Shown piece by piece: positions 2,684 to 19,958 of a stretch of 20,132 nt of DNA; the first letter of the stretch is position 1; every line of letters starts with the position of its first letter. Source of the DNA: Sutterellaceae bacterium (GTDB lineage: Bacteria; Pseudomonadota; Gammaproteobacteria; Burkholderiales; Burkholderiaceae_F). The stretch is taken from contig JAUNOJ010000005.1 in the NCBI GenBank assembly GCA_030531135.1, positions 1-20,132 of the forward strand, written 5' to 3'. The translations under genes and the position numbers were made by a program. Under the pieces are notes generated by a model. That model saw nothing but the letters and a program-made list of their open reading frames with translations, searched no databases and was not told the DNA's origin.

Positions 2684-3955
2684 TTACTTGGCAAAGTAGC
2701 GCGTACTGCGTGCGTTGCCTTGACGAACGATACGACCGGCGTCTTCAAGTTCCTGCAAAACCTTGGTGATCGTCGGGCGACTCACACCCAAATGTGCTTC
2801 AAGTTCGATGTGCGTGCGTCCTTCGATCGAGTCGCGCAAATACGCCATCACCGTTTCCGTGCGCGTTATTTGCGGTGCGTAGACGCGCGGCAAATCGATC
2901 AAAAAGAACCGCGTCTGCGCCTCGAGCGTGGGCGATATGTGACAGCCTGCATAAGCTCGGGCAATCGCCGGCATGCCGTTTCCTGCAATCTCCATCCAAC
3001 CGAGCTTCTGAAAGAGTTGTGCCAGACGTTGATTCCTGCAGAAGGTTGTACCGATTTTGAGAAGCTGTTTCGCAGGCAGTTCCGGCGGTAGGCCGCCTAA
3101 GGTGGAAAAGCGGATGTTGCGCGGAGAAACGGTGATGCAAGCGTCTAGCGCAGAGCTGTAATCGCGGTGCGCGAGCGTGTTGGCAAGTGCTTCGCGCACG
3201 GCAATCGCCGGCCACGGATAAATGGCTTCGCGTTCTTGTTTGCCGGTATCTTTATTGATATAGGGGCTGTTGATGTCGGAAAACTCTTGCATCAAACGTT
3301 GCATTTGAGACAAAAGAGACTTTTCGAGTCGACGGCTATCCTTGAACTTGCCTTGTGCGTCAACTCGAGTCAAGACTGTGGCATGCGAGTTTTGGTCGGA
3401 TAGCAAATACCCGAGACGGGTGTATTGGCCTTGGGCATTGACGATGCCAAACGCTTCGGGGGCGAAAGGAACACCATGGGTTTCGCAAACCCACTGAGCA
3501 GCAACAAACGTGAGTTCTTGCGTGGGGCTCACAGCACTTTCCCACTGACGCGGATCACCACGGCGAATCAACGCAAAGACTTCGTCCAAGTCAGCGGCGA
3601 CGGTTTGATTCCCTGCGCGGATAAAAACACCGCCTTCGTGAAAGACTTTACCTTTGAAGCGATAGGGAAGTTCCGTGCCCGGCGCCACGTAGATTCTTGA
3701 CAAGGTGCGATTGTCCTGCACGTCCTTTTCGATACGAACAAGGCCGGCCATAGAAGGAGAGACATTGTCGTTGGCAAACGCATTGACGACGGCTACGACC
3801 TCGTCGAACACGCAACCGAGTGTTTCTCCCGAGTCCGATGCACCGATCACAAGTACGCCGCCCATGTCGTTGGCAAAGGCGATCATGGTTTGCTGTGCGG
3901 CTTCGTGCCAGATGGGGTGATATTCGGTGCGATCAGTCAAAAGAGGAGTAGCCAT
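2684..3955 (-). CDS. AlbA_2 (Schlafen-type) domain / winged-helix putative transcriptional regulator
   Basis: A 423-residue protein counted from ATG 3955; a TTG at 3982 is possible but lies inside a palindrome. The N-terminal AlbA_2 domain shows AFANDMGGVLVIGASDSGE. The middle has the HATPase_c_4-like signature REALANTLAHRDYSS followed by GGLPPEL and GNGMPAI. The C-terminal ~50 residues form a winged helix-turn-helix (HIELEAHLGVSRPTITKVLQ, then ELEDAGRIVRQG). This order is common in proteins annotated as putative DNA-binding or RecG-like ATP-binding regulators. Their ligands are mostly unknown. The immediately upstream inverted repeat at 3969-4003 suggests autoregulation. No Shine-Dalgarno sequence is evident before ATG 3955. 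It is divergent from the autotransporter at 4213, so the shared 257-bp intergenic region may let it influence that gene; this is inference. Confidence 0.85.
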   Translation of the reverse strand: MATPLLTDRTEYHPIWHEAAQQTMIAFANDMGGVLVIGASDSGETLGCVFDEVVAVVNAFANDNVSPSMAGLVRIEKDVQDNRTLSRIYVAPGTELPYRFKGKVFHEGGVFIRAGNQTVAADLDEVFALIRRGDPRQWESAVSPTQELTFVAAQWVCETHGVPFAPEAFGIVNAQGQYTRLGYLLSDQNSHATVLTRVDAQGKFKDSRRLEKSLLSQMQRLMQEFSDINSPYINKDTGKQEREAIYPWPAIAVREALANTLAHRDYSSALDACITVSPRNIRFSTLGGLPPELPAKQLLKIGTTFCRNQRLAQLFQKLGWMEIAGNGMPAIARAYAGCHISPTLEAQTRFFLIDLPRVYAPQITRTETVMAYLRDSIEGRTHIELEAHLGVSRPTITKVLQELEDAGRIVRQGNARSTRYFAK

Positions 3956-3968
3956 TGTGGTTGTCGAA

Positions 3969-4003
3969 GTTAAATCTGTCAAATCAACGTTGGCAAATTT
4001 AAC
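3969..4003. promoter_or_regulatory. 14-bp imperfect inverted repeat, probable operator
   Basis: The arm GTTAAATCTGTCAA (3969-3982) and the arm TTGGCAAATTTAAC (3990-4003) are inverted copies matching at 12 of 14 positions, with a 7-bp centre. It lies 13 bp upstream of the ATG of the winged-helix regulator, the usual place for an autoregulatory operator. Binding by that protein is inference. Confidence 0.55.
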
Positions 4004-4077
4004 ATAAATAGAAAAAATTATTACAGATTATCGCGAATTCGTTCGGGAATGTGTTTCAGAGTTCAGGGTTGTATGGC

Positions 4078-4108
4078 TTGACAATATCTTGTTGGGGGGG
4101 GGTAGGAT
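4078..4108 (+). promoter_or_regulatory. Autotransporter promoter with a nine-G homopolymer spacer (candidate phase-variable promoter)
   Basis: A consensus -35 box TTGACA (4078-4083) is followed by TAGGAT (4103-4108, 4 of 6 matches to TATAAT). The spacer is 19 bp and ends in nine consecutive G (4094-4102). One or two G fewer would give the optimal 18- or 17-bp spacing. This matches the arrangement of the phase-variable porA promoter of Neisseria meningitidis. The 5' leader to the ATG at 4213 would be about 100 nt and contains a small hairpin (AATTCC 4145-4150 / GGAATT 4157-4162). Confidence 0.6.
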
Positions 4109-4123
4109 AGCGCAAGATATTGT
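4081..4123. repeat. Perfect 11-bp inverted repeat flanking the G-tract and -10 box
   Basis: ACAATATCTTG (4081-4091) and CAAGATATTGT (4113-4123) are exact inverted copies separated by 21 bp. The left arm overlaps the end of the -35 box and the right arm lies around the predicted transcription start. It may be a two-half-site operator or form a cruciform. Confidence 0.7.
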
Positions 4124-4212
4124 ATCTACGTAGAAATTCTGAGTAATTCCTTCTGCGGAATTTTGATGTAAGAGACATAAAAACAAAAAGACCTTCCAAT
4201 GGAGAACGAATT

Positions 4213-6879
4213 ATGCAATTGAGTAAATCGCATACAAAGACATTGCTGGCATTGGCTGTTTTTGCGACATTCGCCACGAGTTCCGAATACGTACAGGCAG
4301 TTGAACCTGACCCGGTCTACGAGTTAGAAAGTGCAGGTAGTTATGACAAAGAATTTAACTACACAGTGACGGCAGGGAAGACGGTCGATGGGAATAATGA
4401 ATCCCTGATTATCACTGGAGGTATTGCTCAGAGAGATCGTTTAACTGTTAATGGTACTTTAAAAAATGTCAATGATATTTCATTGTCCAAGGGGGCTTTG
4501 AAAGTTGGTTTGAACGGGGTAATCAATAGCACTGGTAAGCTGAGTTTAGGTACTGTTGTTTGGAACGGCGCATCTAATCCGATACATGTGAATTCGGGAA
4601 CAATCATTGCCGAAAGTATGGAGTTTACTGATTCAACCTTTTCATCATTCAAGAACGACGATAACGCTACTTTGCAACTGAAGGACGCAAATTTCGGTAG
4701 TTGTGGCGGACCGTTTATCAATAACGGTGCAATTCTTTCCGAGGGTGAAACAGTTATTTTTGGCAAGAATACGACTTTTGGCGCGAATGCGTCAATCGGA
4801 AAGGTAAACGGCGAGGCTGTTTCTGTTAGTCTCAACGCGAATCAGGGGAAATTTTTCAATAATGCAAACTTAACGGTACAGAATTTTCAAGTTACGAGCG
4901 GTGAACACGCTCAGGACGGCGGAACGGCAACTTTCCATAATCTCAATGCACTTCACGTCAAAGGGGATTTTGAAGTAGATCATTACGCCACAGATAATAC
5001 GGTAGCTACACTCAAAGTTGATGGCACTGCGACCATAGCAGACATTGATGCAAATGTATATGGCTCGTTGGAGGCCGACAAGTTGGTTGTTTTGAAATCG
5101 GCCGACTCTCACATGAGCTCTATCATTGCCGGTACGTTGGAAGTTCAAAGCTCGGCTAATTTTTTGGATTTGGAAAATCTCAAGGTTGACCATCTTAAAG
5201 TGAATGGAGGCGACAAACCCAGTGCGTATGTGAAGTTTGACTTTAAAGATGGCGCTGGAAATACAGTCGACTTGGAGAGTGCCGAATTTAATGGAAAGAA
5301 AACAACTCTCCAGCTTTTTAATGCGAATTTAGACTTGGATCAAGTCACAGTCACGGAAGGTTCCAAAGGGTATATCAACTTTAAGGAAGGGACCGATCAA
5401 ACTGGTACAGTGGGTGTTGTCAAAGTCAACCAAAATGCAAAATTTGATGTTATAACGGAAAAAGCAAATAGTAAAACGACAATAGATAGCATTACTTTGG
5501 AAGAGAACAGTACTTTTGGCGGTGGTGGCGACAAATTACTGACTAATAATGCGACGATTAACGTCACTGATATTACAGTCAACGGTGATGCCCAAATTAG
5601 TAAAGTTGGGGGATTACTGACGAATACGACTCTTTCTATCGATAAAATGGAGGTTAATAAGGGCACGCTTACTGTTGCATCCACTCAAAAGATTGCCGGC
5701 AAAGAGTTTGATTTGACTGTCAATGAAGGTGCTAAAGTCGATATCCAATTTTCCGTCGATGCCCAAGCGTTTAACGTCTACGCCAATACGCTCGTAGCCG
5801 ACTCTGTCAAAGTTGCTCAGACAGGCGAAAATACGAATGCGACCGTGTACGTCGGTTCTGACCTCAACACCAAGGTTGCACGCGAAATCGTGAACGACAT
5901 CCATGCTGCTGTTTCCATGGATAAGGATTATGCATACGAGGTTGCCGACGGTGACATCTATGGTGCTATCAGAGGTAAGGGCGACACCTATACCCAAGCC
6001 AAGAACGCCAATTTGACCGGCTTGGGTTCCGTGACGGCGCTTTCAACCATGACGTGGCTCCACGAGATGAATAGCCTCAACAAACGCATGGGCGAACTCA
6101 GAGACGCTCCGCAAGGTGTCGGCAGCTGGGTGCGTCTCTACGGTTCCGAGATGGAATACGGCGTACAAAATGTTCAGAGCAAGAATACGACCATTCAGGT
6201 CGGGTCCGACATCTCCGTGGGTGATTGGAAGGTCGGTTTGGCCGCCAACTACACCGACGGCGAAAGCTCTTACGACAACGGTTCGGCAGATTCCAAGAAC
6301 TACGGTATCGCGATCTACGGTTCGTGGTTGGCGCCTTGCGGCGGTTATTTGGATTTGATCGCAAAATATTCGCGCTTGGATCACGACTACGCCATGGGTA
6401 ACATGAAGGGCAATTACGATAACAACGCCTTGAACTTAAGCGTTGAGACGGGGTATCGCTTCGAATTCATGGAAGATCGTGTCTTTGTCGAACCGCAGCT
6501 GGAATTGGCCTACGGTCATATTTCGGGTGCCGATTACATGGCCAGCAACGACGTACGCGTCGATTTGGATAGCTACACGAGCTTCACCGGTCGCTTAGGG
6601 GTTCGTACGGGCTTTAAGTTCCCGGACAACAAGGGCTCGGTCTATGCGCGCGTTTCCGGCGTCTACGACTTTGACGGCGAAATCGACTACAAAGCCAGCA
6701 AGGGCGATATGTACGACAACTTCCACGAAGACTTGGGCGGTGCTTGGGTCGAATACGGTATCGGTGCCAATTTCAATTGGACGGAAAACACCTACACGTA
6801 TGTGGACTTGGAGCGCACCTCGGGCGGCGAAGTCCGTGAAAACTACCGTTGGAACATCGGTTTACGCCACGTTTTCTAA
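4213..6879 (+). CDS. Autotransporter outer-membrane beta-barrel protein (888 aa)
   Basis: Type V (type Va) secreted surface protein. GGAG (4201-4204) lies 8 bases before the ATG. Residues 1-29 form a signal peptide (LLALAVFATFATSSEYVQA, cleavage probably after VQA). Residues about 30-600 are a passenger rich in Asn, Thr, Val and Asp, of the kind that folds as a beta-helix. No protease or lipase motif is recognised. A helical linker (around LSTMTWLHEMNSLNKRMGEL) leads into the C-terminal barrel of about 260 residues beginning WVRLYGSEMEYG. The protein ends GLRHVF, with the terminal aromatic residue required for BAM-dependent assembly. The passenger DNA is clearly more AT-rich than the barrel DNA, suggesting passenger exchange. 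It probably acts as an adhesin or surface antigen; the ligand is unknown. Expression may switch through the upstream G-tract. A terminator follows at 6908. Confidence 0.92.
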   Translation: MQLSKSHTKTLLALAVFATFATSSEYVQAVEPDPVYELESAGSYDKEFNYTVTAGKTVDGNNESLIITGGIAQRDRLTVNGTLKNVNDISLSKGALKVGLNGVINSTGKLSLGTVVWNGASNPIHVNSGTIIAESMEFTDSTFSSFKNDDNATLQLKDANFGSCGGPFINNGAILSEGETVIFGKNTTFGANASIGKVNGEAVSVSLNANQGKFFNNANLTVQNFQVTSGEHAQDGGTATFHNLNALHVKGDFEVDHYATDNTVATLKVDGTATIADIDANVYGSLEADKLVVLKSADSHMSSIIAGTLEVQSSANFLDLENLKVDHLKVNGGDKPSAYVKFDFKDGAGNTVDLESAEFNGKKTTLQLFNANLDLDQVTVTEGSKGYINFKEGTDQTGTVGVVKVNQNAKFDVITEKANSKTTIDSITLEENSTFGGGGDKLLTNNATINVTDITVNGDAQISKVGGLLTNTTLSIDKMEVNKGTLTVASTQKIAGKEFDLTVNEGAKVDIQFSVDAQAFNVYANTLVADSVKVAQTGENTNATVYVGSDLNTKVAREIVNDIHAAVSMDKDYAYEVADGDIYGAIRGKGDTYTQAKNANLTGLGSVTALSTMTWLHEMNSLNKRMGELRDAPQGVGSWVRLYGSEMEYGVQNVQSKNTTIQVGSDISVGDWKVGLAANYTDGESSYDNGSADSKNYGIAIYGSWLAPCGGYLDLIAKYSRLDHDYAMGNMKGNYDNNALNLSVETGYRFEFMEDRVFVEPQLELAYGHISGADYMASNDVRVDLDSYTSFTGRLGVRTGFKFPDNKGSVYARVSGVYDFDGEIDYKASKGDMYDNFHEDLGGAWVEYGIGANFNWTENTYTYVDLERTSGGEVRENYRWNIGLRHVF

Positions 6880-9761: not shown

Positions 9762-10697
9762 TCAACGCGAGGCGCGCTTGGTGGGTACGCCGTTGGCTTT
9801 GAGCGTATCCGACAAAAACTGTGTCGGGAAACGACAGGCCGACTTCAAATGAATGGGGTCGCGATCCTGCAGGTGGGCGGGCTCAAACATGCCGTCCACA
9901 TCTGCGGGTTCCAAGTTTTCCATGAGGCGCGCCGGAATTTCTGTGACGCACGCGCGAGCAAACGTCTCCACAAAGGAGCCCTTCTTGCGCGTCGGCCAAA
10001 AGAGCTTTTCCGGAATCTTCGTCAAGCCGCTTTCGGCAAAGAGGCGATCGAAGACGTGCGCATGCGTATTGGTGGAAAAAAGCTCTTCCGGAACCGTCGT
10101 CAAGCTCTTGCAACCCGCGAAACTTTCGGTGAAGTCTTCGGCTTGGAGATTGGCCGTGAAAAGCTGGCGGCTGACTTCCGCGATGCCGCTTAAGGCAAAA
10201 ACGCCCGCAAAGCTTCTTAAGTAGATTAACGGGAAAAAGAGCGACTCCGGCACCGAAGTCAAAAGCGGCAGGCGCGAAAAGGTGCCGGGCAACGCCACCA
10301 AGTGTGCGTTGTGGGCAAAAAGGGACGAGACAACGCTCTTTAAACCCACGGGCGGATGGTCCGGGTGCCAAATGTAACCGAAGGGCGTTAAGGCGCCGGT
10401 GGCGTCGTTGACGAGTGCCGGAATGGGGCTCACGATCGAACCGGTTTGCTCGGGCAAAATCACGGTGCCCGCGGGCAGGGGGCCGCCGAAATCAATTGTC
10501 AGCTTTTGTGCTTCGGGCAAAGACGTAAATTCGATCACGGTTGCCGACTCCGGCACGCGACGGCGCGTTTGCGTGTCTTTGCCGTAGGTGACGGTGACGT
10601 TGGTGAGACTCGGTGCCAAATTTTCACCGGCGGGAATCCGTACGCGCACCATCGAGACTTTTTTCGTCGGAACGATTTCTAAAACAAGCTTGGTCAT
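9762..10697 (-). CDS. Leucine-rich-repeat protein with degenerate PKD-like N-terminus (311 aa)
   Basis: Not assigned to a named gene. Residues 1-90 look like a beta-sandwich domain related to the PKD-like domain of the neighbouring protein, but without its WGDG motif. Residues 120-275 hold repeats with a period of 26-27 residues, beginning at LLTSVPESLF (145), GIAEVSRQLF (171), SLTTVPEELF (198), GLTKIPEKLF (224) and CVTEIPARLM (250). FAgC-like segments lie between them. This resembles the BspA/DUF285-type leucine-rich repeats of surface proteins. No signal peptide, lipobox, membrane helix or sorting motif is visible, so its location is unclear. The start is 10 bp after the stop of the upstream gene, without a clear ribosome site, so the pair is probably one operon. 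Its C-terminal module resembles that of the upstream gene (VDGMF shared), pointing to tandem duplication. Confidence 0.75.
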   Translation of the reverse strand: MTKLVLEIVPTKKVSMVRVRIPAGENLAPSLTNVTVTYGKDTQTRRRVPESATVIEFTSLPEAQKLTIDFGGPLPAGTVILPEQTGSIVSPIPALVNDATGALTPFGYIWHPDHPPVGLKSVVSSLFAHNAHLVALPGTFSRLPLLTSVPESLFFPLIYLRSFAGVFALSGIAEVSRQLFTANLQAEDFTESFAGCKSLTTVPEELFSTNTHAHVFDRLFAESGLTKIPEKLFWPTRKKGSFVETFARACVTEIPARLMENLEPADVDGMFEPAHLQDRDPIHLKSACRFPTQFLSDTLKANGVPTKRASR

Positions 10698-10707
10698 GGT
10701 ACGCGTC

Positions 10708-12117
10708 TTACAAAAGTTGGGGATAGAAACAATCGAGCGTCTCGTCGCGACGCAAAACCGTGTAGCTGTTGGGCAATTGCTTTAAGGATTTGCAGAAAGC
10801 AAACATCCCGTCGACATTGGCGTGACGAATGTTTTCCAAAATGTCGTGGGGCACGTCTTTGAGTTTGACGCAGCCAGCAAAGGCCTGCTCCAAACTGACG
10901 ATGTCGGGATTGTTGACAAAAATCGGCACGGCAATCGTTTCGAGCTCTCGCAAATCGGCCGCCCAACCGGTAAAGTCGCCGCGCGACTCAACCGTCTTGG
11001 GATGCCAAATCGGCAAAGCCGAATGAATGGCTTTGGTGTGTTTGCCCAAATAGAAGGGGCGCACGGCTTCGCGCGGCGTGTAGTGAAGCTTGACGCGATA
11101 GGTGCCGACAGTGTCATAGGCGTGATCCAACGTTTGCACGTGATTGAAGTCCACCACTTCGGTCTTGCCGTCACCCCAATCGATCAGGATGTCGCCGTTT
11201 AAAGCCAAGTCGATCGGATAGAAATAAATGACGCTGTGCACTTCGGTGTCGGGTGCTGCCCAATCGAAATCGAAACTCGGATTGGCAGCCGTCGCCTTGG
11301 GACGATCCCAGCCCATTTCTTCCCGACGATCGGGGGCACACCAACCGAATAACGTGCTCGGAGCGCCCGCTAAAAACTCTTCCATGCAAATCGGCAGAAT
11401 GCCTTCGCGGAAAGGATTTTCCACCGCGCTTAAATTGGGGCAATCGGCAAAGGTGCGCGCGCAATCGGTCGATTCGCCGGCCGTTAAAAACGTTTGCGAT
11501 TCGACTTTGACGATCGGCGTTTGTGCAAAGGTGCCGACAAGGCTCGTGAGCTGTCGGCAGGCGTTCATTAAGCCTACCGGGAGGCTTTTGAGTTGCGTGC
11601 TCGCAAAAGCGTCGTCAAAAAATTCCAATTGCGGATTTCTCAAAAACAGATCCGACGGAATATGCGCCAAACGGCTTTTGCCGTCAGGGCTGCCCGCAAC
11701 GGCCACGGGTGAGAGCGTGTCGCTTGCGATCAAACGGAAATTTCCGTCGGTCTCGCCCACGGTCAAAACGGGCAAGGGCGAGTCGATCGAAATCGTCTGA
11801 TACGGCAGGCTTTTGAGCGGCAACCACCCCATCGGTGCTTTGATTGCCAGGGTGCGTTTGCCCGCAGTGGCATAGCGGTGCGTCAACTTGGCGACCGGCA
11901 CCAAATCCGGGCGCGTCACCATCTCGTTTAAGGTCTCGTCGTCAATCGTCAAGTCGGGCGACGTTTGACGACCGTCGCCCCAGTCGACGACGATTTCGCC
12001 GATCTGATAGGCGGCAAGTTTCGGGACGGCATAAAAGTCGACGCAAATTTCTTCGTCGGCTTTGTGAATGACCGTCAACTGCAGACTGATCGTTTTGGTG
12101 GTCGTATCGGTTGCCAT
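10708..12117 (-). CDS. PKD-like / leucine-rich-repeat two-module protein (469 aa)
   Basis: Start set at ATG 12117 (MATDTTTKTISLQLTVI); a TTG further upstream at 12174 is less likely. The protein is two copies of one module. Module 1 has a PKD-like domain with EIVVDWGDGRQT and HRYATAGKRTLAI. It is followed by leucine-rich repeats such as RLAHIPSDLFLRNPQLE, QLKSLPVGLM and QLTSLVGTFA. Module 2 has DILIDWGDGKTEVV and HAYDTVGTYRVKL, then repeats ending KLKDVPHDILENIRHANVDGMF. PKD-like folds and these repeats usually occur in exported proteins that bind ligands, yet no signal peptide is seen here. A possible -10 box TACAAT (minus strand, plus 12164-12169) lies in the 86-bp gap after serB. Function unknown; protein-protein interaction is the most that can be inferred. 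Confidence 0.78.
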   Translation of the reverse strand: MATDTTTKTISLQLTVIHKADEEICVDFYAVPKLAAYQIGEIVVDWGDGRQTSPDLTIDDETLNEMVTRPDLVPVAKLTHRYATAGKRTLAIKAPMGWLPLKSLPYQTISIDSPLPVLTVGETDGNFRLIASDTLSPVAVAGSPDGKSRLAHIPSDLFLRNPQLEFFDDAFASTQLKSLPVGLMNACRQLTSLVGTFAQTPIVKVESQTFLTAGESTDCARTFADCPNLSAVENPFREGILPICMEEFLAGAPSTLFGWCAPDRREEMGWDRPKATAANPSFDFDWAAPDTEVHSVIYFYPIDLALNGDILIDWGDGKTEVVDFNHVQTLDHAYDTVGTYRVKLHYTPREAVRPFYLGKHTKAIHSALPIWHPKTVESRGDFTGWAADLRELETIAVPIFVNNPDIVSLEQAFAGCVKLKDVPHDILENIRHANVDGMFAFCKSLKQLPNSYTVLRRDETLDCFYPQLL

Positions 12118-12203
12118 GTGAATCGCAGAATCTTTTGCACAAAATGAGAAACATCGGCCTAGGATTGTACCCAAGCACCGATGCCAATGTTTGCCTGAGT
12201 GTC

Positions 12204-16841: not shown

Positions 16842-16870
16842 TTGACAACGGTTTTTGCCGTTTTCATCAT
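16842..16870 (+). promoter_or_regulatory. Putative promoter of the second autotransporter
   Basis: A consensus -35 TTGACA (16842-16847), then 17 bp, then CATCAT (16865-16870, 4 of 6 matches to TATAAT). The spacer holds a short dyad AACGG/CCGTT. The leader to ATG 17067 would be about 190 nt, which is long. Confidence 0.45.
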
Positions 16871-17066: not shown

Positions 17067-19958
17067 ATGAAAATCAAATACCCCAACCCCGATCGCCCCT
17101 TCATTGGCAAGGGTTTTTCCACAACCAAGAATTTCTCACCGAGACACAATCTTGTCTCTTCACTCGTGTGTCTATCCGTTTGTAGCTTTACCTCCGGTGT
17201 CGTCTCGGCCGAAAACGATCCCGTCAATCTTTGTGCCGGAGACCGTTGTGTCAGTAGCTACAACGTTCTAACCGATCTTGCCGAAATATCCGGTGGGAAT
17301 GTCGCAGCGGGTCACATTGAGGTCACCGGTGGCTTTTCGGATTTGACAGCCAACGGCAATACGGTCACACTCGACTCCTTTGACGACTCTGCACTCAAGC
17401 ATGTCTTTGGCGCCAGAATCAGCAATAAAAGGACCCCGGACAGTAATACTGCGCATACCTATGCCACAGCCAACGGCAACACGGTCAGAATCTCGAGTAT
17501 GGAATTTACCAGCGGTAACGGCGGTGACAGTAACGGCGCCGTTTACGGAGCCTTCAATTGGGTCTCGGAAAACGGCATCTCGGTCGTTGACGTCCCTTAC
17601 GAGGTCATCACTCGGGCAATCGGAAACAAAGTCTATATTGAGGATTCTTCCATTGCCGGCAATGTATACGGGGCAATGTCTTACGCTTCAATTCTTCGTA
17701 TAGAACCGGGAGCGACGAAAGCCTTGTCGCACGCTTTTGCCGATGACAACCACCTATCTCTGACCGGAACAGCACTTGAAAACAAAACGCAAGGGATGCT
17801 GATCGGCGGCAAGAGCTGGTTATATACCGCTAAGGATCATGGTAGTGGCGACGATATCGTGACCGGCTTTGCAACAGCCAAGGGCAATACCGTCTCGGTT
17901 TCAGGCTATCAAGTCGAAGGTTATCCGAGTCACAACGGCTCGGGCTCCTTGGTGCCCGGAACGGTGATCGGCGGTTGGGCGAGACTCAACATTAATGACG
18001 GCAGTGTGCGCTATCCGTCCGTGACAGCAAACGCCGATAACAATCAAGTTGAGGTCAAAGACGGGACAAGCGTTGCCGGTGATGTCAAGGGTGGCACGGC
18101 AGAAGTCGGTTACCGCAACGAATATTTGTCTCCAAACGAGAAAGCAAACGGTAAGGTGTATGTGACCGAAGCTCTGGCCACGGCAAGCGGCAACCAAGTT
18201 TGGGTGATCGGCGACTCGCAAGCCTCCGACCAAACAAAGGTCGTCGGCAGTGTCTATGGCGGCCACGTGATCACGTCAAGCGCCCAAAAAATTTATGCAA
18301 CACTACAAGAGAATATCGTGACGATTGACGGCGCAAGTGTGGGAGGGTCTATTTACGGTGCCGTATTTGGTTTGCCTGAGTCGGAAACCGAAAATATCGT
18401 TCTCACAGAAGCAACGCTCAATTTGAGCGGCAACACCGTTTTGATCCAAAATGAAGCGACGATTGATGGCAACGTCTACGGCGCCTACGTTCAAACCCAA
18501 TTCGATAGTGCGAAGATTGCCGAAACCCAAAATGTTCAAGTCACAGATAACACCGTCCTTGTTCGAGGCAACATTCATTTGGACAATGCCGAGCTCTACG
18601 GTAGCAATCTGAGTGTCGATCATGGCAATCAGTCCGGCAATCAACTCGAGATGACAGGTTACTCGGGCAGTATGAAAAACATCACCAACTTCAATGGCGT
18701 TTCGCTTGACCTCAACGGCTTGGCACTCAAAGAAAACGAAGCCGTTGTGACGCTGACCGAAGGGCAGACCGATTTGTCAGCCACCGCCGTCAATATTTTC
18801 ACTTCTTCGACCGATCGTATTGTGACGGCGACCGGAGACTTGGCGCAGCGCTACGAACTCATTGCCAATACCGATACCGGCTTGTCGGCCGATGAAAGCA
18901 CGTTTGTCAATCGAACACTGACGGTGGCCAAGAGCTATTCGGTCGATGCCGTTTACAACATTGTCTACGACAACGAAAACAGTATCGATGCCGTTAGCAG
19001 CCACAACAAAGCGCGTCAGGGCACCGACATCTTTACCGAAGGTCGTTTGGCCGTTTCCGGATTATTGACTTCGGGCGCCGACTTTGCCTTGGATCGCAAA
19101 TTGGATTGCAGCATCAACAAAGACGGCACGATTCCGGAGCGTTGCGTCTACGTGGACATGCAGGCAGAAAAACTGCGCTACAAAACGAAGAACGACGCAA
19201 GACTGCGCACTACGGGCAGTCATTTGGTATTGGGTCTGAAGGGTAAGTTGAACGATCGCGAAGACATCGACAAAGACATCAACGGTGCTGTGTATTTCGA
19301 AGCCGGTCGCGCCAACTTGCGCGCCACCAACGACTGGGCCAAGGGCGAGGGCGATTCCGAATACTACGGCCTGGGTTTGATCGGCGAGTACCGTCAGCAT
19401 GAAGGGAGCATGAAGGGCTCCTACATCCAGTTGCACGGTCGTATCGGTCAGGTCTCAAACGACTTGAATGCCGCCTTTATCGGAGCCGGTGACGGCAGTG
19501 CCGGATATGATGAGACAAGCACCTATTGGGGCTACGGGGTTGAAATCGGTTACCGTTGGGTCACGAGCGAGTCGACGCGTCTGGACTTGGCGGCTCGCTA
19601 CCGCAGTCTGACGGTAGAAGGCTTTGACAGCACGATCGCGGGTGACCGTTACGAAATCGACGATGTCGAAAGTCGCCGCACACATTTGGGTGCGCGCTTT
19701 AATTATGTCGGGCACAAGAATGTCGTCCCATATGTAGGCCTGGCTTGGGAATACGAGTTCGGTGCCAAGGCCAACGGTCATGTCGCAGGTTTGGCATTGG
19801 CTGAAGACAGTTTGAAGGGGAGCACCGGAGTCGGCGAAATCGGCGTTAAGGTCAGCCCTTCCGAGGGCAGTCCCTGGACGATTGACGGCAGCCTCAAGGG
19901 CTACTTCGGTCGCACCGAAGGTGTGGCGGCTTCGCTTTACGTGAGCTACTTGTTCTAA
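17067..19958 (+). CDS. Autotransporter with repeat-built passenger (963 aa)
   Basis: Start set at ATG 17067, with AAGAG six bases upstream. The N-terminus has a long polar stretch of about 28 residues before the hydrophobic core, and cleavage is likely after residue 48 (GVVSA|EN). This resembles the extended signal peptides of some large autotransporters. The passenger (about residues 50-640) is built from recurring units in which a GN-x-V-x-I strand is followed by a turn and a (G)xVYGA strand. Examples are GNKVYIEDSSIAGNVYGAMS, ENIVTIDGASVGGSIYGAV and GNTVLIQNEATIDGNVYGAY. This pattern suits a beta-helix. A linker (HNKARQGTDIFTEGRLAVSG) leads into a C-terminal barrel of about 280 residues ending LYVSYLF with terminal Phe. 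It is a type V surface protein, probably adhesive; ligand unknown. The passenger shares no obvious repeats with the 4213-6879 protein. Confidence 0.9.
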   Translation: MKIKYPNPDRPFIGKGFSTTKNFSPRHNLVSSLVCLSVCSFTSGVVSAENDPVNLCAGDRCVSSYNVLTDLAEISGGNVAAGHIEVTGGFSDLTANGNTVTLDSFDDSALKHVFGARISNKRTPDSNTAHTYATANGNTVRISSMEFTSGNGGDSNGAVYGAFNWVSENGISVVDVPYEVITRAIGNKVYIEDSSIAGNVYGAMSYASILRIEPGATKALSHAFADDNHLSLTGTALENKTQGMLIGGKSWLYTAKDHGSGDDIVTGFATAKGNTVSVSGYQVEGYPSHNGSGSLVPGTVIGGWARLNINDGSVRYPSVTANADNNQVEVKDGTSVAGDVKGGTAEVGYRNEYLSPNEKANGKVYVTEALATASGNQVWVIGDSQASDQTKVVGSVYGGHVITSSAQKIYATLQENIVTIDGASVGGSIYGAVFGLPESETENIVLTEATLNLSGNTVLIQNEATIDGNVYGAYVQTQFDSAKIAETQNVQVTDNTVLVRGNIHLDNAELYGSNLSVDHGNQSGNQLEMTGYSGSMKNITNFNGVSLDLNGLALKENEAVVTLTEGQTDLSATAVNIFTSSTDRIVTATGDLAQRYELIANTDTGLSADESTFVNRTLTVAKSYSVDAVYNIVYDNENSIDAVSSHNKARQGTDIFTEGRLAVSGLLTSGADFALDRKLDCSINKDGTIPERCVYVDMQAEKLRYKTKNDARLRTTGSHLVLGLKGKLNDREDIDKDINGAVYFEAGRANLRATNDWAKGEGDSEYYGLGLIGEYRQHEGSMKGSYIQLHGRIGQVSNDLNAAFIGAGDGSAGYDETSTYWGYGVEIGYRWVTSESTRLDLAARYRSLTVEGFDSTIAGDRYEIDDVESRRTHLGARFNYVGHKNVVPYVGLAWEYEFGAKANGHVAGLALAEDSLKGSTGVGEIGVKVSPSEGSPWTIDGSLKGYFGRTEGVAASLYVSYLF

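Follow-up and report, generated by a model that had tools for sequence, protein, structure and literature searches.

The question raised by this locus is whether a run of nine G residues (G9), placed between the two boxes of a predicted promoter, makes the expression of a surface protein switchable. The run lies on contig JAUNOJ010000005.1 of the draft genome of a Sutterellaceae bacterium (GCA_030531135.1), within a stretch of 20,132 nucleotides that was analysed as a whole and is called the window below, and it ends 110 nt before the start codon of an autotransporter gene. The boxes, the run and the target gene are all in place, long runs are concentrated at surface genes, and the architecture recurs in the genus. 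On this basis the promoter is, in our judgement, highly likely to be a phase-variable sigma-70-type promoter of the kind that controls porA, fetA and opc.

A nine-G run closes the spacer of a predicted autotransporter promoter

The elements of the predicted promoter and of the gene that follows it are these:

4078 to 4083, plus strand: predicted −35 box, TTGACA, 6 of 6 consensus positions, read from the sequence
4094 to 4102, plus strand: G9 run, the closing nine bases of the 19-bp spacer and the predicted slippage site
4103 to 4108, plus strand: predicted −10 box, TAGGAT, 4 of 6 consensus positions, abutting the 3′ end of the G run
4115 (±2), plus strand: approximate transcription start, placed from the position of the −10 box only
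4144 to 4146, plus strand: TAA in the autotransporter frame, between the G run and the ATG, from the codon list
4201 to 4204, plus strand: GGAG, probable ribosome-binding site, 8 nt 5′ of the ATG, read from the sequence
4213 to 6879, plus strand: autotransporter gene, 888 amino acids (aa), with a C-terminal beta-domain (PF03797, 6.6e-44; TIGR01414, 1.7e-53)

A preliminary description of this DNA had reported a perfect TTGACA and a TAGGAT separated by 19 bp, nine of them G, and direct reading of the sequence bears this out: the spacer runs ATATCTTGTT and then G9. By homopolymer count no other G/C run in the window reaches seven, and A/T runs of eight or more are absent from it; the intergenic region in which G9 stands has a G+C content of 36.5%. 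The optimal spacing of a sigma-70 promoter is 17 bp. As in promoters of the porA/fetA/opc type, the mononucleotide run lies wholly inside the −35/−10 spacer, the 19-bp spacer is at most two steps from that optimum, and the gene 3′ of the promoter codes for an outer-membrane or surface protein. The same description had named this gene a surface autotransporter, which the two profile matches listed above confirm; an N-terminal signal-like segment was also recognised by eye. The database entry for the protein is 588 aa long and begins at an internal ATG at 5113; ATG 4213 is the first start codon after the in-frame TAA at 4144–4146.

Slipped-strand mispairing at replication would add or remove G within 4094–4102, so that the distance between TTGACA and TAGGAT would shift in 1-bp steps from 19 bp and transcription of 4213–6879 would be altered. 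Under the spacing rules of sigma-70 promoters, spacers of 17–18 bp are strong and those of 19 bp weak. The present 19-bp state would by these rules be a weak or low one, and the loss of one or two G would yield a strong promoter. The amount of autotransporter would then differ between cells of one population.

A generic promoter scan accepts spacers of 16–18 bp only and hence did not list the 19-bp site at 4078–4108. In the window it returned 13 sites against a shuffle mean of 11.9, so that box matching alone proves nothing; the scan also gave a weaker candidate on the same strand further upstream, TTGGCA-17-AAAAAT at 3990–4018, scoring 9/12.

Long runs in the host genome adjoin outer-membrane genes

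The draft genome of the host comprises 2,110,352 bases in 403 contigs and is 87.6% complete with 3.3% contamination. Among the 120 Mfd relatives listed, the few that carry a taxon name are labelled Burkholderiaceae or Burkholderiales, and once Gemmatimonadota, at ∼60% identity, which makes the host a likely relative of the Burkholderiales. G/C runs of at least eight occur seven times in the draft and those of exactly seven twice, and all seven of the longer runs adjoin outer-membrane genes: four autotransporters, two porins and one TpsB-like secretor. Because every long G-run of the draft genome is placed in this way, a slip-prone expression switch at our locus is very probable. The autotransporter genes, all matching PF03797, lie 3′ of runs on contigs C14, C52 (the window promoter), C168 and C396. 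With 20 PF03797 matches in the genome by profile search, the chance that at least four of the seven fall no more than 300 bp from one of these genes is p ∼4e-8, or 1e-4 when an eightfold intergenic bias is granted to runs near PF03797 genes.

Contig C396 carries a second promoter with the run in its spacer, TTGACA-21-TACGAT with a run of twelve G (G12), 5′ of an autotransporter gene of 865 aa (L089, 1267–1299). The tandem porin genes on C74 (L106, 4501 and 5988) are preceded by runs of 8 and 9 in a shared context, CCTAGGGTATA-Cn-AA, which stand ∼180 bp 5′ of the MKKTLAAV starts, a distance obtained by adding 42 and 37 codons to the 53 and 68 nt that separate the runs from the first in-frame ATG. 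The remaining long run, ten C (C10) on contig C59 (L105, 4501), falls within the first codons of the TpsB-like (ShlB) secretor gene, which is likely a translational contingency locus.

Runs of nine and ten form a second peak across the genus

Ten genomes of the genus contain 129 G/C runs of eight or more: 18 of length 8, 50 of 9, 40 of 10, 9 of 11 and 12 of greater length. There are 72 runs of exactly seven, and since the counts drop to 18 at length 8 and then climb to 50 and 40, lengths 9–10 form a second peak and not a decaying tail. Two runs, C23 (L114) and G32 (L122), sit where a contig ends and probably arose in assembly.

A run was assigned to an autotransporter gene if it lay no more than 300 bp from the first ATG of a PF03797 open reading frame (ORF). 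This applies to 30 of the 129 runs, in 7 of the 10 genomes, where ∼0.4 would be expected (0.19 for one side of the ATG, doubled for both). The G strand is the coding strand in 22 of these 30. Of the 22, 12 have TTGAC in the 24 nt 5′ of the run, versus 3 of the 107 other runs (p 9e-9). We also scored matches to TTGACA and TATAAT combined, with the run inside the spacer and 7 of the 129 runs left out; the mean was 8.2 for the 22 runs versus 5.8 for 92 others, and 500 shuffles gave at most 7.0. The best-scoring spacers of the 22 runs span 16–23 bp (15–23 being allowed), a spread that fits genomes captured in differing switch states.

We scanned 85 of 115 candidate ORFs near runs, split by eye into 40 that look secreted or surface-located and 45 others, leaving 30 unscanned. 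Autotransporters account for 27/40 of the former and porins for 7/40, totals for the set and not assignments gene by gene. These fractions are biased by the preselection by eye; the count free of this bias is the 30 of 129 given above. Some genes of the genus follow a second design, in which the coding strand carries C and the run stands ∼85–190 bp 5′ of the ATG; it occurs at porins and at ESPR-type autotransporters, the latter on C14 in the host genome and several times in G007. In several porin cases the run, read by eye, lies immediately 5′ of a TTGACT- or TTGATT-like box. The design resembles that of promoters such as Bordetella fim (PMC1891110) and nadA (PMC2791445), where the run determines how far an upstream element stands from the core promoter. 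The window promoter does not belong to it.

The promoter pattern recurs beyond the genus

In 67 genomes of the family, the pattern TTGAC-N6..13-G8-N0..3-TANNNT gave 16 match rows representing 15 places, the window included, in 9 genomes; 7 of the 10 genomes of the genus have it. The reversed pattern gave no match in the same 67 genomes. A near-identical pattern matched in 5 of 398 genomes of the phylum, the host's own included, with none for its reversed control. Two genomes of one other genus, G190 and G276, carry near-identical promoters with G9 and G10, orthology being assumed for neither.

A search of named genome contigs with TTGACA-N6..12-G9-N0..2-TANNAT, run with no reversed control, found at least 118 stretches, and among the 80 matches listed many belong to Clostridia, Bacilli and Saccharibacteria. 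The loci also include Lentisphaerae, Elusimicrobia and one alphaproteobacterium with 23 match rows in the looser search described next, and the genes that follow often have signal-like N-termini. From the loci we picked 20 genomes for variety, each having a match by selection, and a slightly looser pattern gave 104 match rows in them (overlapping readings counted) versus 2 for the reversed form; two of the 20 have 23 rows each. Within a single genome, G101, near-identical copies of the promoter carry G8, G9 and G10. Of the ORFs downstream of the promoters at the at least 118 loci, 46 of 60 begin with a hydrophobic N-terminus, versus 163 of 466 other ORFs there (p 8e-10), the test leaving out 62 of 122 sites that had no assigned ORF of at least 150 aa. 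This excess comes from a selected sample, but it strengthens the case that promoters of this kind are functional.

A perfect inverted repeat encloses the run

The G run and the −10 box are enclosed by an inverted repeat that the preliminary description did not mention:

4081 to 4091, plus strand: left arm, ACAATATCTTG, of an inverted repeat with perfect 11-bp arms, overlapping the −35 box in its final three bases
4113 to 4123, minus strand: right arm of the repeat, CAAGATATTGT on the plus strand, at and just past the predicted transcription start

The arms are separated by 21 bp and their starts by 32 bp, ∼3 helical turns, and as a hairpin they give z-scores of −4.1 and −5.6 on the two strands under DNA parameters. 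We surveyed 123 of the 129 genus runs for flanking repeats, six being left out for contig ends or N. Perfect arms of at least 10 bp flank two of them, our locus (11 bp) and L137 (10 bp); in shuffles 0.05 runs of 123 had arms of 10 and none had arms of 11. The inverted repeat at this position far exceeds chance. At L137 the run (4500–4508) lies within a perfect 10-bp inverted repeat (GGGTTTGTAC / GTACAAACCC), 5′ of an ESPR-like autotransporter gene.

With arms of at least 10 bp at only 2 of 123 runs, we rejected the repeat as a general component of the system. We regard it as a local addition, its arms being putative half-sites for a regulator. If they serve in this way, each slip would alter the promoter spacer and, along with it, the distance between the half-sites; stochastic and regulated control may then be coupled, which is the weakest step of the proposed mechanism. 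Such an arrangement would combine the porA and nadA designs. An invertible promoter is improbable here: the arms enclose only 21 bp, the inverted repeats of known invertible promoters enclose longer segments, and no recombinase domain was found among the five window proteins scanned, a set that covers neither the rest of the window nor the genome.

Weighing the phase-variable promoter against other explanations

The support for the phase-variable promoter proposed in the preliminary description is wholly comparative, and it has held up: seven of seven long host runs at outer-membrane genes, the 9–10 length peak, the enrichment of TTGAC, and reversed controls at zero. Several observations weigh against it. 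The −10 box matches consensus at only 4 of 6 positions, and run lengths taken from so fragmented a draft carry error. No second copy of the locus was found, and no length variation was seen at it. A protein search with 7995 candidates scored listed, besides the window's own entry, only four weak relatives (E 2e-42 to 2e-17, with 31–32% identity over ∼30% of the query where stated), and in 40 related genomes nothing matched the DNA upstream of the autotransporter gene. In its favour, promoters of similar layout elsewhere do differ by one or two G, as in the C74 porins, the G190/G276 pair and the G101 copies. Also on the negative side, within the genus TTGAC is lacking at 10 of the 22 same-strand autotransporter runs, some of which have TTG-like hexamers; 99 of the 129 runs lie away from PF03797 genes by the 300-bp rule; and the 45 other scanned ORFs near runs belong mostly to unrelated housekeeping families. 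The genomes G001, G003 and G006 have 4 runs of eight or more each, versus 6, 18 and 14 of exactly seven, and no PF03797 gene adjoins any of these 12 long runs.

Three of these points speak for a run with no role, a chance homopolymer or an assembly artefact: the single draft assembly, the lack of a second copy for comparison, and the three species that show no excess of long runs. The length peak, the seven of seven runs at outer-membrane genes and the empty reversed controls disfavour this explanation, and we judge it very improbable. A translational switch, in which slippage would bring an upstream start into or out of frame with the autotransporter, likely exists elsewhere in the same genome, in the C10 run of the TpsB-like gene. 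At our locus the run is neither inside the coding frame nor joined to it, and because the in-frame TAA lies between the run and ATG 4213, the next start, switching of the reading frame across the run is impossible for the annotated start; we rejected this candidate, and its probability is close to nil.

Another explanation accepts a functional run and places the promoter elsewhere, for example at the TTGGCA-17-AAAAAT site, so that the G run would be part of the 5′ untranslated RNA and act on RNA structure or elongation. The 9/12 score of that site, the 36.5% G+C content of the intergenic region and the 11-bp hairpin into which a strand spanning both arms folds, calculated with DNA parameters only, are compatible with it. 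We consider it improbable, given that TTGAC shows a statistical association with the runs that adjoin autotransporter genes, that promoter matches of 9/12 quality occur in the window at shuffle level, and that an Rfam search of the window gave no family at the gathering threshold. The inverted repeat suggests yet another possibility, a NadA-like arrangement in which the run would mainly space two operator half-sites of a repressor or activator and its effect on the −35/−10 distance would be secondary. Perfect 11-bp arms are unique among the 123 runs and did not arise in shuffles, the ∼3 helical turns between arm starts would suit paired half-sites, and at nadA the NadR-bound operators flank the repeat, one of them overlapping the −10 box and the start (PMC2791445). 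Against this, the −35/run/−10 architecture recurs where no inverted repeat is present, arms of 10 bp or more are not general to the system, and no regulator has been assigned, the AlbA_2 gene described below not being conserved as a divergent neighbour of autotransporter genes in the genus. The arrangement is possible but on balance unlikely, and a phase-variable promoter with the run as a variable spacer remains our preferred reading.

Neighbouring genes in the window

Upstream of the promoter, a gene of the opposite strand shares the intergenic region:

2684 to 3982, minus strand: divergent gene for a Schlafen/AlbA_2 (PF04326) protein with a helix-turn-helix-like C-terminus; there is an ATG at 3955

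This gene is a possible but unsupported regulator of the shared region. We rejected it as a dedicated regulator, since in a comparison of the genus-wide match lists no other PF04326 match is paired divergently with a PF03797 match; one (G005, C20) lies within 2 kb of a PF03797 match, in facing orientation. Three of the 20 PF04326 matches of the genus (window 2684–3982; G005:C13:2439–2783; C15:7483–7830) lie ∼1 kb or less from a G/C run of at least eight. At the start of the divergent gene is a further inverted repeat, GTTAAATCTGTCAA / TTGGCAAATTTAAC (86%, window 3969–4003), a possible autoregulatory site.

A second autotransporter-like gene in the window, with its ATG at 17067, has TTGACA-17-CATCAT upstream at 16842–16870, without a run, as expected of a fixed promoter. 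In the genome profile search PF03797 matched gene 17067–19955 at 55.8 bits; hmmscan of a near-full-length translation (17076–19955) gave no PF03797 match, and NCBIfam had no match for 17067–19955. Elsewhere in the window, two adjacent minus-strand ORFs of 311 and 488 aa (9762–12174) look related and repeat-containing by eye, and a 297-aa ORF at 1348–2241 with no Pfam or NCBIfam match resembles, again by eye, the N-terminal part of an insertion sequence (IS) transposase.

Relation to known systems and significance

In promoters of the Bordetella fim genes, the run separates an activator site from the −10 box and takes the place of a consensus −35 box. Unlike these, the run here lies between a perfect −35 box and the −10 box, which sets the window promoter apart from the fim type, to which the C-run type at porins and ESPR autotransporters of the genus may be closer. 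The likeness to the C-stretches of Bordetella fim2, fim3 and fimX consists in a promoter homopolymer, a surface structure and membership of the Burkholderiales, an order in which homopolymer phase variation, promoter tracts included, is known from Bordetella (PMC1891110). At fimX, strains with C8 have 3.8-fold less transcript than strains with C7 (PMC1891110).

The closest likeness is to porA of Neisseria meningitidis, and also to fetA and opc, which are grouped as promoters with homopolymers between −10 and −35 (PMC2791445) and in which a spacer run likewise precedes an outer-membrane protein gene. The preliminary description was right that porA is controlled in this way: its poly-G tract stands between −35 and −10, 11G being the high state, 10G giving a twofold reduction and antibody-negative variants having 9G (PMC3639595). 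The tract is thus poly-G in both, at porA 9–11 long. Unlike porA, the present locus belongs to what is probably another bacterial order and to an unrelated gene; its −35 box is a perfect TTGACA, a perfect inverted repeat surrounds its run, and its switch is a predicted one. With nadA and its regulator NadR, the locus may share operator half-sites on either side of the repeat, one of them near the start region (PMC2791445). In contrast to the TAAA repeats of nadA, which lie upstream of the promoter, the run is inside the spacer, and the regulators NadR and IHF known at nadA have no assigned counterpart here. Slippage of a G-tract at a surface structure is also described for the sortase-dependent pilus of the gut commensal Bifidobacterium breve (PMC9187656), where the tract is intragenic and not, as in the window, in a promoter spacer.

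The preliminary description was aware of no such promoter in this type of organism. Our literature searches by name on Sutterella, Parasutterella and Burkholderiales are consistent with this: within the literature searched, which left out subscription papers and preprints, there is no direct report of such a promoter for Sutterella- or Parasutterella-like bacteria.

A broader view, which we put forward tentatively and hold to be somewhat less probable than its opposite, is that the window promoter is one of a phylum-spanning 'TTGACA - poly-G - TAnnnT' class, acquired independently by many bacteria that are host-associated and for the most part not pathogenic, as a means of bet-hedging their secreted and surface proteins. 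The genus would then possess a multi-locus phasome of promoter-spacer, upstream-tract and coding types, and one slip at our locus would change two spacings. If its members are commensals, the genus is a direct test case, with long runs next to autotransporter genes in 7 of its 10 genomes and others at porins and a secretor, and the proposed switch is specific enough to be scored from sequencing reads. That this architecture turns up in unrelated lineages, with reversed controls nearly absent, points to slippage in the spacer as a source of surface diversity that may be general and under-counted.
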